This document shows, one piece after another, positions 4,216 to 18,931 of a stretch of DNA of 20,275 nt. The DNA is taken from positions 1-20,275 of IMG/VR virus record IMGVR_UViG_3300042517_000826. The stretch is one strand, 5' to 3'. How positions within the stretch are numbered: the first letter of the stretch is position 1; each line of letters begins with the position of its first letter. The DNA comes from a virus. The position numbers were made by a program, and so were the translations under genes. The notes under the pieces are model-generated. The model had not been told where the DNA came from. It did not search any database and saw nothing but the letters and a program-made list of their open reading frames with translations.

Positions 4216-5669
4216 GCATGGTTTCTGTGCCTTGGTCGCTCCAAACTTATCAACACCGCTCACCTAATGTGAGTGCGGTTCGAACGCTCAATCTCTATCC
4301 CGAAGTGGTCAACAACGGGGCAGAGGAACAAATCATTTTGATTGGTTGTCCTGGAACTGAACGCTTTGCAACCATCCCAAACATCGGCTCAACTTGTCGC
4401 GGGATTCACACAACCGCGACAGGTCGTCTTTTTGCGGTCTATGGCGGTGTAGTTTATGAGTTTGGTGACAATGGCTCTGTGCTGAGATCTTTCCTCATTT
4501 CAGGACTTCCAACACGGGTCAAAATGGCTGATAACGGAGCCTATCTTGTGATTGTTGATAGGGTCACAATGTACTGCATTGACCTAAACGCAAACGCACT
4601 TGTACCCGTTCAAATTGATAGTGACCTCACCAATCCCACCGGAATCATTTATCTCGGTGGATTCTTTTATGCCATTGACGACACGAACCGCGTCTATTTC
4701 AGCGACATCAACCAATCCGCAAAACTTTGGAACGCAAACGGATTTTTCACGGCGGAACGCTCCGCAGATCCCGTGATTGCAATCGCCTCAGCTTCGGGCA
4801 ATGTGTGGCTTTTTGGGACTAGATCTTATGAAGTTTGGACTGAGTCGGGCGATGCTGATTTACCCTTGAGACGTATTTTAGGGTCGACCGCAGACATCGG
4901 TTGTGCCTCAGCTTATTCCGTTCAAGTGATCGGTGATTCATGTTTTTGGCTCGGGTCGAGTGCAGTTGGAACGGGGCAAGTTTACATGACCCAAGGCTAC
5001 CAAGCACAAGCAGTCACAAACCCCGCAATCTCGTATCTCATTACAAAAAACGGACTCTCTTTGCGTGATGCCTATTCGCTTAGTTATCAGCAAGAGGGTC
5101 ATGTGTTTTATGTTCTAAGCCTTGTAACTGCCGATAAAACAATAGTTTACGATGCTTCGAACGGAATGTGGCATGAGAGGGCAAGTCGTGATCCTTTGAC
5201 AAATCAGCTTCGCAGATGGGATGTGACTGATGCAACCTTCGCTTTTGGTCGCGTGATCTGTGGCAATTTGCGCGGTGAAGATCCAGCTTTGCTCACTTTG
5301 AGTCTTGATCGCTACATTGAATACGATGGTCGCCTAATCGTGCGAATCCACCAAAGCCCAATTTATAACGCAAAAGGCACTCCCCTATTTCATTCAGCTT
5401 TTGAGGTTGAAATGGAAACGGGTGTGGGGCTTCAAATTGGACAAGGCGAAGACCCCGTTGCCATGCTAGAGTTTAGTGACGATTGCCATATTTGGTATGG
5501 CGAGTTAAGGGCTAGTATTGGTAAAATTGGGAATTATAGCGCAGGAGTGCGGTGGCATCGTTTAGGTGGTCGCGCTCGGGAAAGGGTTTACAGAGTTACA
5601 ATCTCTGACCCGATTAAGGTTGTTATGCGCGGTGGTCGTCTCTTGGCTAGAGAGGGTATAGGTCAATGA
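4212..5669 (+). CDS. Packaged-DNA stabilisation protein (tail hub), P22 gp10-like
   Basis: The 485-residue, beta-rich protein begins with PWSLQTYQHRSPNVSAVRTLNLYPE, typical of the gp10 / DNA stabilisation family. P22 gp10 is 472 residues. Repeated short beta units (GGVVYEFGDNG, LGGFFYAIDDTNRVYFSD, GNVWLFGTRSYEVWTESGD) are consistent with the beta-propeller core reported for this family. In P22 a gp10 hexamer binds below gp4, plugs the channel and provides the docking surface for tailspikes. GGAGG at 4198-4202 lies 9 bases from ATG 4212. The C-terminal segment (GKIGNYSAGVRWHRLGGRARERVYRVTISDP) is also characteristic. Family call strong. Confidence 0.9.
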   Translation: MSMVSVPWSLQTYQHRSPNVSAVRTLNLYPEVVNNGAEEQIILIGCPGTERFATIPNIGSTCRGIHTTATGRLFAVYGGVVYEFGDNGSVLRSFLISGLPTRVKMADNGAYLVIVDRVTMYCIDLNANALVPVQIDSDLTNPTGIIYLGGFFYAIDDTNRVYFSDINQSAKLWNANGFFTAERSADPVIAIASASGNVWLFGTRSYEVWTESGDADLPLRRILGSTADIGCASAYSVQVIGDSCFWLGSSAVGTGQVYMTQGYQAQAVTNPAISYLITKNGLSLRDAYSLSYQQEGHVFYVLSLVTADKTIVYDASNGMWHERASRDPLTNQLRRWDVTDATFAFGRVICGNLRGEDPALLTLSLDRYIEYDGRLIVRIHQSPIYNAKGTPLFHSAFEVEMETGVGLQIGQGEDPVAMLEFSDDCHIWYGELRASIGKIGNYSAGVRWHRLGGRARERVYRVTISDPIKVVMRGGRLLAREGIGQ

Positions 5670-6070
5670 GGATCGATCAATTTCCGCGCGGGGGGATGCA
5701 AGCTGACTTAGACAGGTGGAATCAAAACCTTGGAACCGCTTTGCAGGGAGAGTGGGGACGAGGGTACACCTTGGAAATAGTTGGCTCATCCCCCCAATCA
5801 GTTGAGACCGCTTGCATCGGTCAAGCCTTGGTTGTTTCGGTTCGGTGGCAAGGCTCCGCTTCGGGTACGCTTACAATGCCCAAAATCAACGCTCAAAGCG
5901 GTGCAAGATACAAGGCGGTGCCGTCCGTTTTAAGCTACACAAACGGGGAAACATTTTTGCCCGTGATCGCAAGAGGTGAATCCTTTGTATTGCCAACTCT
6001 AAACGGAGTTGAAGCATATAATAAAGAGGTATTTTTAACAGGAGTAATACTCCTAGAGGCGGTAAAATAA
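5666..6070 (+). CDS. Unrecognised virion protein in the needle-gene position (134 aa)
   Basis: I do not recognise this protein. It has 134 residues with an N-terminal RIDQFPRGGMQADLDRWNQNL helix-like stretch, then mostly short beta segments (ALVVSVRWQGSASGTLTMP, EVFLTGVILLEAV). It shows no signal peptide, membrane segment or cysteine cluster. It overlaps gp10 upstream by ATGA (5666-5669) and the gp7-like gene downstream by TAATG (6068-6072), so it belongs to the same translational unit. In P22 this slot holds gp26 (trimeric coiled-coil needle) and gp14. It has no coiled coil and is much shorter than gp26 (233 aa), so it is not an obvious needle. A small tail or ejection accessory protein is the likeliest role by position. 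Confidence 0.7.
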   Translation: MRIDQFPRGGMQADLDRWNQNLGTALQGEWGRGYTLEIVGSSPQSVETACIGQALVVSVRWQGSASGTLTMPKINAQSGARYKAVPSVLSYTNGETFLPVIARGESFVLPTLNGVEAYNKEVFLTGVILLEAVK

Positions 6071-6903
6071 TGGAACCTTTAACAACTGCTCTTTTGGTCG
6101 GTGGTGGGGCTAAACTAGCCTCATCCGTTTTAGGGGCTTTTGGTAGTGCAAATGCAGGACGCGAAACTCGCAGAGCAATCAACCGCGCAACGGGCGAGAT
6201 TAACAAGGGCTATGATCAGGCGATGGGCTACAATCAACCCTTGCTCGATATTGGCATGGGTGGGCTTGAGGATTGGTCTGCTTTGGCGGGGCAAGGTGTG
6301 GAAGATCCGCGCGGGTTTACCTATGATAAAAACGTGATGGACTTTTTAAGCCCTGCAATGCAATACGAGCAACAAAGCGCACTCAATGCCCTTCAAGGCT
6401 CTGCTTTGGCTCAAGGAACTCTCAACTCAGGCGCAACGCAAAAAAAAGCTTTGGAGCTTTTGTCTAACATCGGTCGGCAAGGCTATGGACAAGCTCAGCA
6501 AGCGATGCAACAAGATCGCGCATTTAACGCCCAAAACTTTTGGAATGACTTTGAAGCCCGAAAACAAGCGAGACAACAACGCTTTGCCGAACTCGGACAG
6601 ATTGCAGGCGTTGGAATCAACGCAAGTCAAAATATGGGGAATCTTGCGACTCAACGCGCGGGAGCCTTGTCAAACGCTCAAATGCAAAAAGGCGTGGTCA
6701 ATTCGCAAATGGCGATGCTCCCTTATCAAGTCGGTGGGCAGATTTTGAGTGGTGCGGGGTCGAATCTATCGAGCTATTTTGGCGAATTATCCGAAAGGCA
6801 ATACAACGAAGCGCAACGCATGAAGGATTTAGAGTACATGGCTAAACTCTTGCGTGGATCAAACACAGCAGAACCCTCCCAAGCTCAACCTTTGCAATAC
6901 TGA
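6070..6903 (+). CDS. Ejection (DNA transfer) protein, P22 gp7-like
   Basis: The product has 277 residues. A small, Gly/Ala-rich hydrophobic N-terminus (LLVGGGAKLASSVLGAFGS) is followed by a long Gln/Ala-rich helical body with the pattern YDQAMGYNQPLLDIGMGGL. This layout is characteristic of the DNA-transfer proteins of P22-like phages (P22 gp7, 229 aa), which are packed in the capsid and leave before the DNA to help form a channel through the envelope. A segment such as GTLNSGATQKKALELLSNIG is also common in the family. It is the first of three consecutive large helical genes in the order gp7, gp20, gp16. The start overlaps the previous stop (TAATG). Confidence 0.82.
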   Translation: MEPLTTALLVGGGAKLASSVLGAFGSANAGRETRRAINRATGEINKGYDQAMGYNQPLLDIGMGGLEDWSALAGQGVEDPRGFTYDKNVMDFLSPAMQYEQQSALNALQGSALAQGTLNSGATQKKALELLSNIGRQGYGQAQQAMQQDRAFNAQNFWNDFEARKQARQQRFAELGQIAGVGINASQNMGNLATQRAGALSNAQMQKGVVNSQMAMLPYQVGGQILSGAGSNLSSYFGELSERQYNEAQRMKDLEYMAKLLRGSNTAEPSQAQPLQY

Positions 6904-12608: not shown

Positions 12609-12980
12609 GTGAAACGACTTTTAATTATTTCAAGTCTTTTGGTTTTCGGGTGTGAGCTGACCGAAAACACACCAAACACAAAAGTCAATGAGATCTTCAC
12701 GGATTACTCTCTTAAAGCGGTTTTTGAAGAGAGTGATTCAAATTGGGTCTTGGTTGCGAAAAATGACGGGGCTTTTGTGGTCAAAAAAAACAAAGGTCAA
12801 GGCACGCAAGACTTTCGTTCTTATTCGGGATGCCAAGCAGTAAATGATGATGCTTGTGCGGTCGTGACCTGCCCCGCTGAATCCCTTAATTTCCGTTTTT
12901 GCAACGTGAAGACGTGGGGGATTGATTCGCTTTCTTTCACTTATGAAGGCGATACACTCAAAGGGCGGTATTTTAAATGA
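12609..12980 (+). CDS. Small Cys-rich lipoprotein between the two fibre genes
   Basis: The 123-residue product starts at GTG 12609 with GGGGG at 12599-12603, 5 bases upstream. The N-terminus MKRLLIISSLLVFGC is a short signal peptide with a lipobox (VFGC) and lipidated Cys15. Residue +2 is Glu, not Asp, which would favour outer-membrane sorting in an enterobacterial-type system. The mature part is about 108 residues with four further cysteines close together (SGC, DAC, VTC, RFC), probably two disulfides, and short beta segments. Its stop overlaps the next fibre start (ATGA 12977-12980). Phage lipoproteins of this size include superinfection-exclusion proteins that block the phage's own receptor, and outer-membrane spanin subunits. 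I recognise no homologue. The neighbourhood favours receptor blocking; this is inference. Confidence 0.78.
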   Translation: MKRLLIISSLLVFGCELTENTPNTKVNEIFTDYSLKAVFEESDSNWVLVAKNDGAFVVKKNKGQGTQDFRSYSGCQAVNDDACAVVTCPAESLNFRFCNVKTWGIDSLSFTYEGDTLKGRYFK

Positions 12981-17315: not shown

Positions 17316-17336
17316 AAAGCCCTTCGGGGCTTTTTT
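17316..17336 (+). terminator. Intrinsic terminator ending the tail-fibre block
   Basis: AAAGCCC (17316-17322), loop TTCG, GGGCTTT (17327-17333) and a run of six T (17331-17336) form a compact stem with a very stable tetraloop. It begins 3 bases after the stop of the LamG-like gene and ends 11 bases before the next gene. Lysis genes therefore depend on read-through or an unrecognised promoter upstream. Confidence 0.9.
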
Positions 17337-17347
17337 AGTTTTAACAC

Positions 17348-17920
17348 ATGGAACAAGAAGTAACAAACACTCTGCTTGGAATTTTAAGCCTACCACCTTG
17401 GCTTGAAGCGATTTTAGCAATCGGCTCAGTCAGCTTTTTACTTTGGATGAGTTGGATTAAATCGAAAAGGCAGACGGAAGCTCTTGAGGCTTTGGAAGAT
17501 GCGTGCAAGGCTCTTTGTGCGGTTTCACGGGAAACGATAATCGAACAGCGCAATTTGTACGGAATGATTCAAAACCGCTTAGAATCGGACTCAACGCTCA
17601 ACGCAAATTCAGCCGATATTTTTGTGGGTGGCGCAATCAATTCCGTTTTTTATCAAGTCATGAGTTTTTGCATTGAAATAAAGGGCGAAAAGCCCGAGAA
17701 TTTAGTGCAGGATTTTTGCGGGGATTGCTTCATTGAATTTGCATCGAGTTTGTCTAGAGTGCAAAAATCAAACGGGAAATGTCTTGGGGATTTTGCACAA
17801 ATTATGCGGTGGCATTTTGAGGAGCGTTTGCCAAATAAAATTTTGGTGAATCAAGACCCCTTAATAGCATCGCAATACATAAAATCAGTTTTAGAAAAGG
17901 AGTGGGCGCGGTGGAGATAG
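17348..17920 (+). CDS. Single-TM, Cys-rich membrane protein of the lysis cassette (holin candidate)
   Basis: The 190-residue product starts at ATG 17348 with no clear ribosome binding site ahead of it. One transmembrane helix lies at about residues 19-37 (LEAILAIGSVSFLLWMSWI) and is followed by KSKRQ. By the positive-inside rule the short N-terminus would be outside and the 150-residue C-terminal domain in the cytoplasm. That domain is helical and contains six cysteines (DACKALC, SFC, DFCGDC, GKC, allowing for spacing). It overlaps the endolysin gene start by about 10 bases, so a holin or holin-regulator role is plausible. The topology differs from T4 holin (N-in, large C-out), and it is large for a class III holin. 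I do not recognise a family. Confidence 0.7.
   Translation: MEQEVTNTLLGILSLPPWLEAILAIGSVSFLLWMSWIKSKRQTEALEALEDACKALCAVSRETIIEQRNLYGMIQNRLESDSTLNANSADIFVGGAINSVFYQVMSFCIEIKGEKPENLVQDFCGDCFIEFASSLSRVQKSNGKCLGDFAQIMRWHFEERLPNKILVNQDPLIASQYIKSVLEKEWARWR
17895..17902 (+). promoter_or_regulatory. Ribosome binding site deciding the endolysin start
   Basis: AAAAGGAG ends on the first base of an in-frame GTG at 17902, which therefore cannot be the start. The GTG at 17911 lies 8 bases downstream at ideal spacing. Confidence 0.75.
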
Positions 17921-18399
17921 ATAAAATAAGTTTAGACCGAATTGAGCTTTTGCACCCTAGGCTCAGGGGCGAAGCAAAGAAAATTTTAGAGCGGTGTTGG
18001 CAAAGTGGGCTAAGAGTACGATTTACGCACACTCTGAGGACATTTGCAGAGCAGTCAGAGATCTACGCTCAAGGCAGGACAAAAGCGGGTGAGATTGCAA
18101 GCTATGCCAAGGCAGGCATGAGTTGGCACAATTACGGGCTCGCAATTGACATTTGCTTTTTGGTGCAAAATGGCGCGAGTTGGGATGAGTCAAAAGATTG
18201 GAACGGAAACGGAAAAGCCGATTGGCTTGATGTTGTGGCGATCTTTGAGGCTCACGGGTGGACTTGGGGTGGTCGGTGGAAAGGAAAGAAACGCGATGGG
18301 GCGCATTTTCAAAAGTCTCTAGGGCTTACGATTGGGAAGGCTTTGGAATTGCACAGGCTGAAGCAAGTTGATGCGCAGGGGTATCTATGCCTAAAATAA
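17911..18399 (+). CDS. Endolysin, M15-family zinc peptidase (L-alanyl-D-glutamate peptidase type)
   Basis: The 162-residue product, with GTG start, matches the size and motifs of the phage T5-type endolysin and VanY-like M15 peptidases. The zinc site is visible as SWHNYGLAID, giving ligands His73 and Asp80 (pattern SxHxxGxAxD), and DGAHF with His132. RFTHTLRTFAEQSEIYAQGR (35-56) matches the substrate-side helix. The enzyme would cut the peptide stem of peptidoglycan after holin-mediated release; no signal peptide is seen. Residues 96-107 (DWNGNGKADWLD) match an EF-hand calcium loop at positions 1, 3, 5, 6, 9 and 12. It overlaps the upstream membrane-protein gene by 10 bases and the next gene by 13. 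Family call strong. Confidence 0.92.
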   Translation: MEIDKISLDRIELLHPRLRGEAKKILERCWQSGLRVRFTHTLRTFAEQSEIYAQGRTKAGEIASYAKAGMSWHNYGLAIDICFLVQNGASWDESKDWNGNGKADWLDVVAIFEAHGWTWGGRWKGKKRDGAHFQKSLGLTIGKALELHRLKQVDAQGYLCLK

Positions 18400-18851
18400 C
18401 ATGGGAGCTTTGTGCATGTTGTGGGCGCGAAGTGAAGCAAAATGGTTGTGGGTCAGATGCCACGTTTTGGCAAAGGGCTTTGACTCGTGTTTTAGATAAT
18501 TTGAATCCAGTTACAACAACCTTATTCCGTCCTGCAAGCGATCTACATGATATTTTATATCATCAAGGCGATATTGACAATGTCGGTTTATTTGAAGCCC
18601 AAAAAAGCGCGGATGAGGAATTTTTGCAGATTGCACTTTTTGCGATTGAGCATCCCGAGGTTACAGAATTAGGGCGGTTCAATCGGTGGCTTGTGAAGTC
18701 GCAAAAGTGGTATTTCCGCCACAAGGCTTATCAGTATTTTAATGCCTTGCGTTGGAAAGGGCATGAAGTCTATCCGAAATTACCATGCACTCATGCAGAA
18801 CGCGAATTTATCAAAGGGGATGTCCATGAAGTGGATCAAGCTGATTCTTGA
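18387..18851 (+). CDS. PLA2-like HDxxY protein in the lysis cassette
   Basis: ATG 18387 has AGGGG at 18377-18381, 5 bases upstream, and overlaps the endolysin 3' end by 13 bases. The product has 154 residues. The N-terminus has clustered cysteines (ELCACCGREVKQNGCGSD). Residues 52-61 read DLHDILYHQG, followed by EAQKSADEEFLQIALFAI. The HD-x-x-Y core with a following 'AD..F' helix is the active-site pattern of the phospholipase A2-like superfamily (His54/Asp55, Tyr58). It is seen in several small phage and parvovirus proteins. The C-terminal part is helical and aromatic (RWLVKSQKWYFRHKAYQYF), compatible with membrane contact. No signal peptide is visible. An enzyme role is inferred from the motif; a calcium-binding loop is not clear. 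Confidence 0.65.
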   Translation: MPKITWELCACCGREVKQNGCGSDATFWQRALTRVLDNLNPVTTTLFRPASDLHDILYHQGDIDNVGLFEAQKSADEEFLQIALFAIEHPEVTELGRFNRWLVKSQKWYFRHKAYQYFNALRWKGHEVYPKLPCTHAEREFIKGDVHEVDQADS

Positions 18852-18897
18852 GCTTTTGAAAAAAGGAAAAGGCTTTAATCGAGGCATTCGAGGCTAA
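18826..18897 (+). CDS. Putative 23-aa cationic amphipathic peptide
   Basis: AAAGGGG at 18813-18819 lies 6 bases before ATG 18826, and an in-frame ATG at 18820 is too close. The predicted peptide begins MKWIKLILELLKKGKGF and ends in RGIRG before TAA 18895-18897. It combines an amphipathic helix with net positive charge, like membrane-active peptides. It overlaps the HDxxY gene by 26 bases in another frame and is followed by the terminator that closes the lysis operon. The good ribosome binding site, placement and non-random composition support it, but an ORF this short may not be expressed. Confidence 0.5.
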   Translation: MKWIKLILELLKKGKGFNRGIRG

Positions 18898-18898
18898 C

Positions 18899-18931
18899 AA
18901 AAAAGGACTCCAAAAACGGAGTCCCTTTTTT
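18899..18931. terminator. Bidirectional intrinsic terminator between convergent operons
   Basis: GGACTCC (18905-18911), loop AAAAAC, GGAGTCC (18918-18924). On the + strand it is followed by C and six T (18926-18931). On the - strand the six A at 18899-18904 read as a T run after the same stem. It lies between the + lysis genes and the - gene ending at 19007, so it can stop both. Confidence 0.92.

Follow-up and report, generated by a model that had tools for sequence, protein, structure and literature searches.

The gene at 18387-18851 of the window (the whole 20,275-nucleotide stretch of viral DNA analysed here) encodes a phospholipase A2 (PLA2)-like protein. Its sequence and its place beside an endolysin gene suggest a phospholipase that damages membranes during lysis, and we give this role at lysis a probability of about 0.6. 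The window is a 20 kb piece of a short-tailed P22-like phage with portal, scaffold, coat, gp10-like closure and ejection protein genes. The PLA2-like gene lies in a compact cassette 3' of the tail genes, bounded by two terminator-like hairpins. A single close homologue was found, in another phage contig (L001), with 78% identity over the full 154 residues. The elements of the cassette and the motifs of the protein, in window coordinates, are as follows.

17316-17333, plus strand: terminator-like hairpin 5' of the cassette (7 bp stem and T-run; L001 has the same hairpin just before its cassette).
17348-17920, plus strand: 190-aa protein with one N-terminal transmembrane segment (hydropathy peak 1.74, residues 19-37), holin candidate.
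17902-18399, plus strand: M15-type endolysin (PF13539, E 5.5e-16; PHROG 2649/465 endolysin, 2.4e-25).
18387-18851, plus strand: PLA2-like protein, 154 aa, without signal peptide; ATG start (homology and model).
18411-18422, plus strand: Cys9-x-x-Cys12 (CxxCG), branch-specific, kept in L001.
18441-18452, plus strand: NGCG, Asn19-Gly22, a family motif and, going by PLA2 homology, the likely equivalent of the calcium-binding loop.
18546-18569, plus strand: HDxxYxxG, residues 54-61, with putative catalytic His54, putative calcium ligand Asp55, Tyr58 and Gly61 (family profile aligned to the PLA2 His/Asp).
18609-18623, plus strand: ADxxF, residues 75-79, with Asp76 as putative second dyad member (column at least 90% conserved).
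18786-18794, plus strand: Cys134-x-His136, branch-specific, possible partner of Cys9/Cys12, kept in L001.
18826-18897, plus strand: 23-aa amphipathic ORF, the final ORF of the cassette, overlapping the 3' end of the PLA2-like gene; same peptide in L001.
18905-18924, plus strand: terminator-like hairpin at the cassette end, identical in L001.

The ORF, with its DLHDILYHQG and SADEEFLQIAL segments, was present as the initial annotation had described it. The overlap with the endolysin gene was also confirmed, at 13 nt, and that endolysin was identified as an M15 peptidase. A Shine-Dalgarno-like AGGGG stands immediately 5' of the ATG, and the ORF is a real gene, since its 78% identical homologue lies behind the endolysin of L001. 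The 190-aa protein matched no family in Pfam or PHROGs; its transmembrane segment and its position 5' of the endolysin suggest a holin.

The cassette is mosaic, and the PLA2-like gene is its better conserved part: L001 and the window share the hairpins and the beginning of the transmembrane protein, but their endolysins are only 39% identical, and in L001 an added lipoprotein gene (5540-6001) separates the endolysin from the PLA2-like gene. The gene had been described as directly behind the endolysin, which is correct for the window but is not a fixed arrangement. In the transmembrane protein (17348-17920 in the window, 4506-5087 in L001) the first 70 residues are nearly identical and the remainder is quite different; positive charges following the transmembrane helix suggest that this remainder is cytoplasmic. 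The 23-aa ORF encodes the amphipathic, basic peptide MKWIKLILELLKKGKGFNRGIRG and stops before the terminator. Its L001 counterpart (6440-6511) has a GTG start and one different residue, and three differences past the PLA2-like stop are all synonymous. It may act on membranes as a lysis peptide, or be a remnant.

Single-sequence searches of Pfam, PHROGs, NCBIfam, PDB, and phage and plasmid records gave nothing convincing; in Pfam nothing matched the window protein up to an E of 5, and there was no direct match to PF09056 or PF07087. A scan for HDxxYxxG-x13-ADxxF was rejected as a PLA2 identifier, having picked up chance frames and three DUF1353 proteins along with L001. Because DUF1353 proteins matched too, the originally noted core is ambiguous and cannot separate them from PLA2-like proteins. 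A second scan used the DNA pattern AATGGNTGYGG (NGCG), followed after 66-96 nt by HDxxYxxG, and yielded at least 119 stretches; apart from L001, at least 115 could be read as members of a single protein family. An independent profile was built from 81 relatives, with the window protein and L001 left out. Among 177,635 PDB sequences it matched four solved PLA2s, 1faz (E 1.9e-10), 4aup (3.5e-9), 7ygk (7.7e-8) and 8k1w (1.3e-6), and gave no significant match beyond these. In Pfam, 26 of the 81 members touched PF09056 and 29 touched PF07087. The window/L001 pair aligned to the phage profile with an hhalign E of 3.9e-11 (probability 97.2).

Motif-preserving controls were run because the motif used to gather the family occurs in the window protein as well. 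With hmmsearch the window protein scored 31.4 bits, compared with a mean of 10 (SD 3.9, maximum 24.6) for 2000 motif-keeping shuffles, and L001 scored 33.7 bits against a shuffle maximum of 29.3. When the motif was masked, ADxxF and the C-terminal part still scored 11.4 bits (single-comparison E 1.2e-5). In bacterial genomes, ORFs that carried the DNA search pattern by chance reached at most 16 bits and true members 48 to 156. In an HD-blind scan (NGCG ... DxxFxxN, HD not required), HDxxY was found in 65 of 65 members and 0 of 7 chance ORFs.

The AlphaFold model obtained with two sequences was unusable (pLDDT 42). With an 89-sequence alignment the pLDDT rose to 74 for the whole protein and about 85-97 for residues 41-130, in a model that depends partly on the sequence argument because the alignment was anchored on shared motifs. 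Its helices 41-63 and 68-88 are paired, as in PLA2s. Foldseek gave no significant match of the model in PDB or BFVD, and the absence of other folds from its lists is no evidence against those folds. When the Foldseek candidates were aligned with VIA-align, the best two were PLA2s, 8k1w (Z 8.4, 98 residues, 3.6 Å) and 4aup (Z 7.9, 97 residues, 3.2 Å), and unrelated helical chains began at Z 5.7; the tool's guidance does not treat a Z in this range as sufficient by itself for helical proteins, and the outcome agrees with the sequence result. A PLA2 fold is thus well supported for the window protein by model and sequence together.

The earlier assignment to the PLA2-like superfamily is borne out by the profile, shuffle, masked-motif, HD-blind and structure tests, and homology of the window protein to PLA2 is close to certain. 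Neither of the outcomes named beforehand as refuting that assignment, a model lacking the paired helices or His54/Asp55 varying among homologues, was observed. A coincidental HDxxY core in a protein unrelated to PLA2 would be in keeping with the lack of a single-sequence match in Pfam, PHROGs, NCBIfam or PDB and of a significant Foldseek match, but every one of those tests points to PLA2, and coincidence is disfavoured as very improbable.

The closest solved folds are the group XIV secreted PLA2s of S. violaceoruber (1faz) and Tuber borchii (4aup; PF09056), with which the window protein shares the His/Asp dyad, the Asp after the His and the paired helices. Group XIV enzymes are secreted and have two structural disulfides, whereas the window protein has no secretion signal and has lost one conserved Cys. 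In these PLA2s and in TtaP, a DUF1353 protein, the dyad consists of the His and a later Asp, and the Asp adjacent to the His is also important (PMC11525133). By homology the catalytic dyad should therefore be His54-Asp76, with Asp55 as calcium ligand; of the catalytic His-Asp core originally proposed, His54 stands and Asp55 gives way to Asp76 as its partner. The Asp76 column lies outside the NGCG-HDxxYxxG pattern used for collection. Conservation of His54 and Asp55 was found both in L001, the sole close homologue, and in the 65 HD-blind relatives.

With DUF1353 (PF07087) and TtaP the window protein shares HDxxY, the ADxxF dyad residue, the absence of a signal peptide and of disulfides, occurrence in phages or prophages and a muramidase-gene neighbourhood, the gene for TtaP accompanying that of a muramidase similar to those of prophages (PMC11525133). 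TtaP hydrolyses PE/PG, requires the dyad Asp and is active without disulfides (PMC11525133). DUF1353 proteins have a DLxSVPR segment, which the window protein lacks; the phage family as a whole is related to DUF1353 (hhalign E 5.6e-8), and the window protein alone gave E 0.0028 (probability 11).

The features shared with the phage NGCG/HDxxYxxG family are NGCG, HDxxYxxG, ADxxF, a C-terminal AxxYxxA/V...G, the lack of a signal peptide and the endolysin neighbour. This family includes PHROG 6098 and the 'phospholipase A2 domain protein' of Vibrio phage 1.097.O. The window protein is a divergent variant rather than a typical member, since it and L001 have Ser51 where 111 of 112 relatives have a Cys, three residues before the catalytic His, a residue that the search pattern did not require. 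The window branch also has a longer loop (31 residues between NGCG and HD, as against 22-26 in nearly all relatives) and added CxxCG and CxH motifs; a CxxC 5' of NGCG occurred in only 2 of the 112 relatives and a CxH in none. Identity to family members other than L001 was about 16-28%. Phage DUF1353/PLA2-like proteins were known already, one member of the wider clan is biochemically proven and one relative was annotated as having a PLA2 domain. The large phage family itself has no name, however, and the window branch differs from the rest of it in its cysteines and the length of its loop. No paper was found on the NGCG/HDxxYxxG phage family as such; it was missed in annotation because its members fall mostly under Pfam thresholds and are unnamed in PHROGs.

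In the family, the Cys before the His and the NGCG Cys would tie the loop to the helix, as in PLA2s, so that Ser51 leaves Cys21 without its partner. The clustered N-terminal cysteines had been put down as unexplained. Cys21 can now be accounted for by the NGCG loop of the family, and Cys9 and Cys12 are particular to the window branch. A zinc site made of Cys9, Cys12, Cys134 and His136 is a guess. The protein might then be a catalytically dead descendant with another role, such as a zinc-bound structural protein, and the lost Cys, the lengthened spacer and the gained CxxC and CxH would suit that reading; but the residues His54, Asp55, Tyr58, Gly61 and Asp76 are intact, and identical in L001 at 78% overall identity, and TtaP works without disulfides (PMC11525133). 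We consider a dead descendant improbable and an active enzyme quite likely.

The genomic setting was compared across 50 family-carrying contigs with six peptidoglycan-hydrolase Pfam families, and a hydrolase was recognised in 30 contigs. Five of the six were found (PF00959, PF01510, PF08291, PF13539 and PF05838); PF00182 had no match in these contigs, a result that carries no information. The nearest hydrolase was within 1.2 kb in 18 of the 30 contigs (2.9 expected; maximum 10 in 20,000 random placements) and within 0.5 kb in 13 (1.6 expected; maximum 8 in 20,000 random placements). Since the hydrolases come from unrelated families, the linkage probably arose repeatedly. Endolysins were also among the commonest assigned neighbours in a PHROG scan. 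The motif-guided search for phage relatives thus recovered a family recurrently placed beside unrelated endolysins, and the lysis setting first seen in one cassette extends to five endolysin families, far above chance expectation.

The remaining 12 of the 30 contigs have the PLA2-like gene more than 3 kb from a recognised hydrolase, which agrees with an accessory lipid enzyme that is dispensable for lysis and serves host takeover, vesicle formation or exclusion of other phages. TtaP, a related active PLA2, left the host envelope without overt disruption (PMC11525133). Related P22-like podophages (P26218, VvAW1 and others) have other, holin-like proteins beside the endolysin, and no HDxxY protein was found there. 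It is difficult to see why the gene would be linked to unrelated endolysins, even in overlapping frames, if the two did not share a step, and an accessory role appears unlikely, though it is the least unlikely of the alternatives. Slightly less credible is an entry enzyme, carried inside the virion or on its surface and acting on host membranes during DNA ejection, in the way that the parvoviral capsid PLA2 acts at entry. Some relatives do stand among head genes (in Vibrio phage 1.097.O, with terminase on one side and a head completion adaptor on the other), and a virion protein needs no signal peptide. The window gene, however, shares a terminator-bounded cassette with the endolysin, 3' of the tail genes, and endolysin linkage across hydrolase families is the dominant pattern.

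In keeping with a lysis role against an outer membrane, members without an apparent signal peptide were found in named genomes of Pseudomonadota, Campylobacterota, Desulfobacterota, Bacteroidota, Gastranaerophilales and Neomarinimicrobiota, and in one Methanoperedens bin. These bacterial groups are double-membraned; the Methanoperedens bin is the exception. In a sample of 398 Pseudomonadota and 398 Bacillota genomes the matches were too few for comparison. The Kineococcus and Trueperaceae chromosomes (L203, L227) encode NGCG-HDxxY proteins with apparent signal peptides that look secreted, and these possibly bridge the phage family and the secreted PLA2s.

Gram-negative lysis is explained by holin, endolysin and spanin, and many phages have no recognised spanin. 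The initial annotation had recognised none in this cassette, and in agreement with it no lipobox ORF was found there. The only lipoprotein found in the window (12609-12980) is far upstream, between tail genes, and shows weak similarity to the L001 lipoprotein. A lipoprotein gene stands beside the PLA2-like gene in L001 and in four distant endolysin-linked loci (L079, L121, L124, L135). PHROG 812 spanin matches in related contigs cover only the lipoprotein-signal part of the model. Thiohalocapsa phage LS06 has a family gene plus an annotated Rz-like spanin elsewhere; this and the neighbouring lipoprotein genes argue that the PLA2-like gene is no simple spanin replacement. The protein may just as well work beside an outer-membrane lipoprotein as in place of a spanin. 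Spanins (Rz/Rz1) are membrane-anchored fusion proteins, not enzymes, and the likeness lies in the proposed step, the loss of outer-membrane integrity after wall cutting. The PLA2-like protein itself has a maximum 19-residue hydropathy of 0.55 and no lipobox, transmembrane segment or hydrophobic N-terminus.

For the catalytic activity, its calcium dependence, its timing and the target membrane of a lysis phospholipase, we infer the following course. One short cassette would yield the holin candidate, the M15 endolysin and the PLA2-like protein together, and the last of these, having no signal peptide, would be held in the cytoplasm until lysis. Once the inner membrane is holed, it would enter the periplasm with the endolysin, where the NGCG loop and Asp55 would bind calcium and His54-Asp76 would activate water to cleave the sn-2 ester of phospholipids. 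The resulting lysophospholipids and fatty acids would weaken the outer membrane and the remaining inner membrane, and with the wall cut the cell would open. A patatin-type phospholipase has been proposed as a lysis gene of phage WO, which also has a double-membraned host; it belongs to a different enzyme family, and WO has no endolysin, whereas the window phage has one (PMC9203015).

More tentatively, and in our judgement rather doubtfully, the family may be a widespread dedicated lysis PLA2 in phages of double-membraned bacteria, acting on the outer membrane as an enzyme either together with spanins or in their place. Low calcium in the cytosol would keep the enzyme harmless, helped in most members by a loop disulfide that has not yet formed, and the window branch would have swapped the disulfide for a CxxC/CxH site. 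A common PLA2-like phage family beside unrelated endolysins offers a testable enzymatic way of breaching the outer membrane, and suggests that the muramidase and phospholipase pairing in the typhoid toxin islet (PMC11525133) originated in phage lysis.

Several existing names were encountered in the family. Of its members, 41 are matched by PHROG 6098, of unknown function, and 24 by PHROG 1158 ('tail assembly chaperone'), the latter around HDxxY. The member in Thiohalocapsa phage LS06 (L147, 4935-5354) is annotated 'DNA binding protein'. This name and 'tail assembly chaperone' look wrong.

Virtually the same PLA2-like gene was seen on about a dozen scaffolds of Methylophaga thiooxydans DMS010 (L156, L157, L159, L186, L201, L212, L220, L225, L247, L248, L255, L262), which points either to a prophage present in several copies or to an artefact of assembly. 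The NGCG-HD DNA pattern also turns up in many spirochaete genomes, those of Treponema among them, with a fixed spacing of 127 nt that is out of frame (L153, L160, L162, L181, L184, L187, L204, L205, L216, L217, L223); these matches are probably one conserved unrelated sequence.
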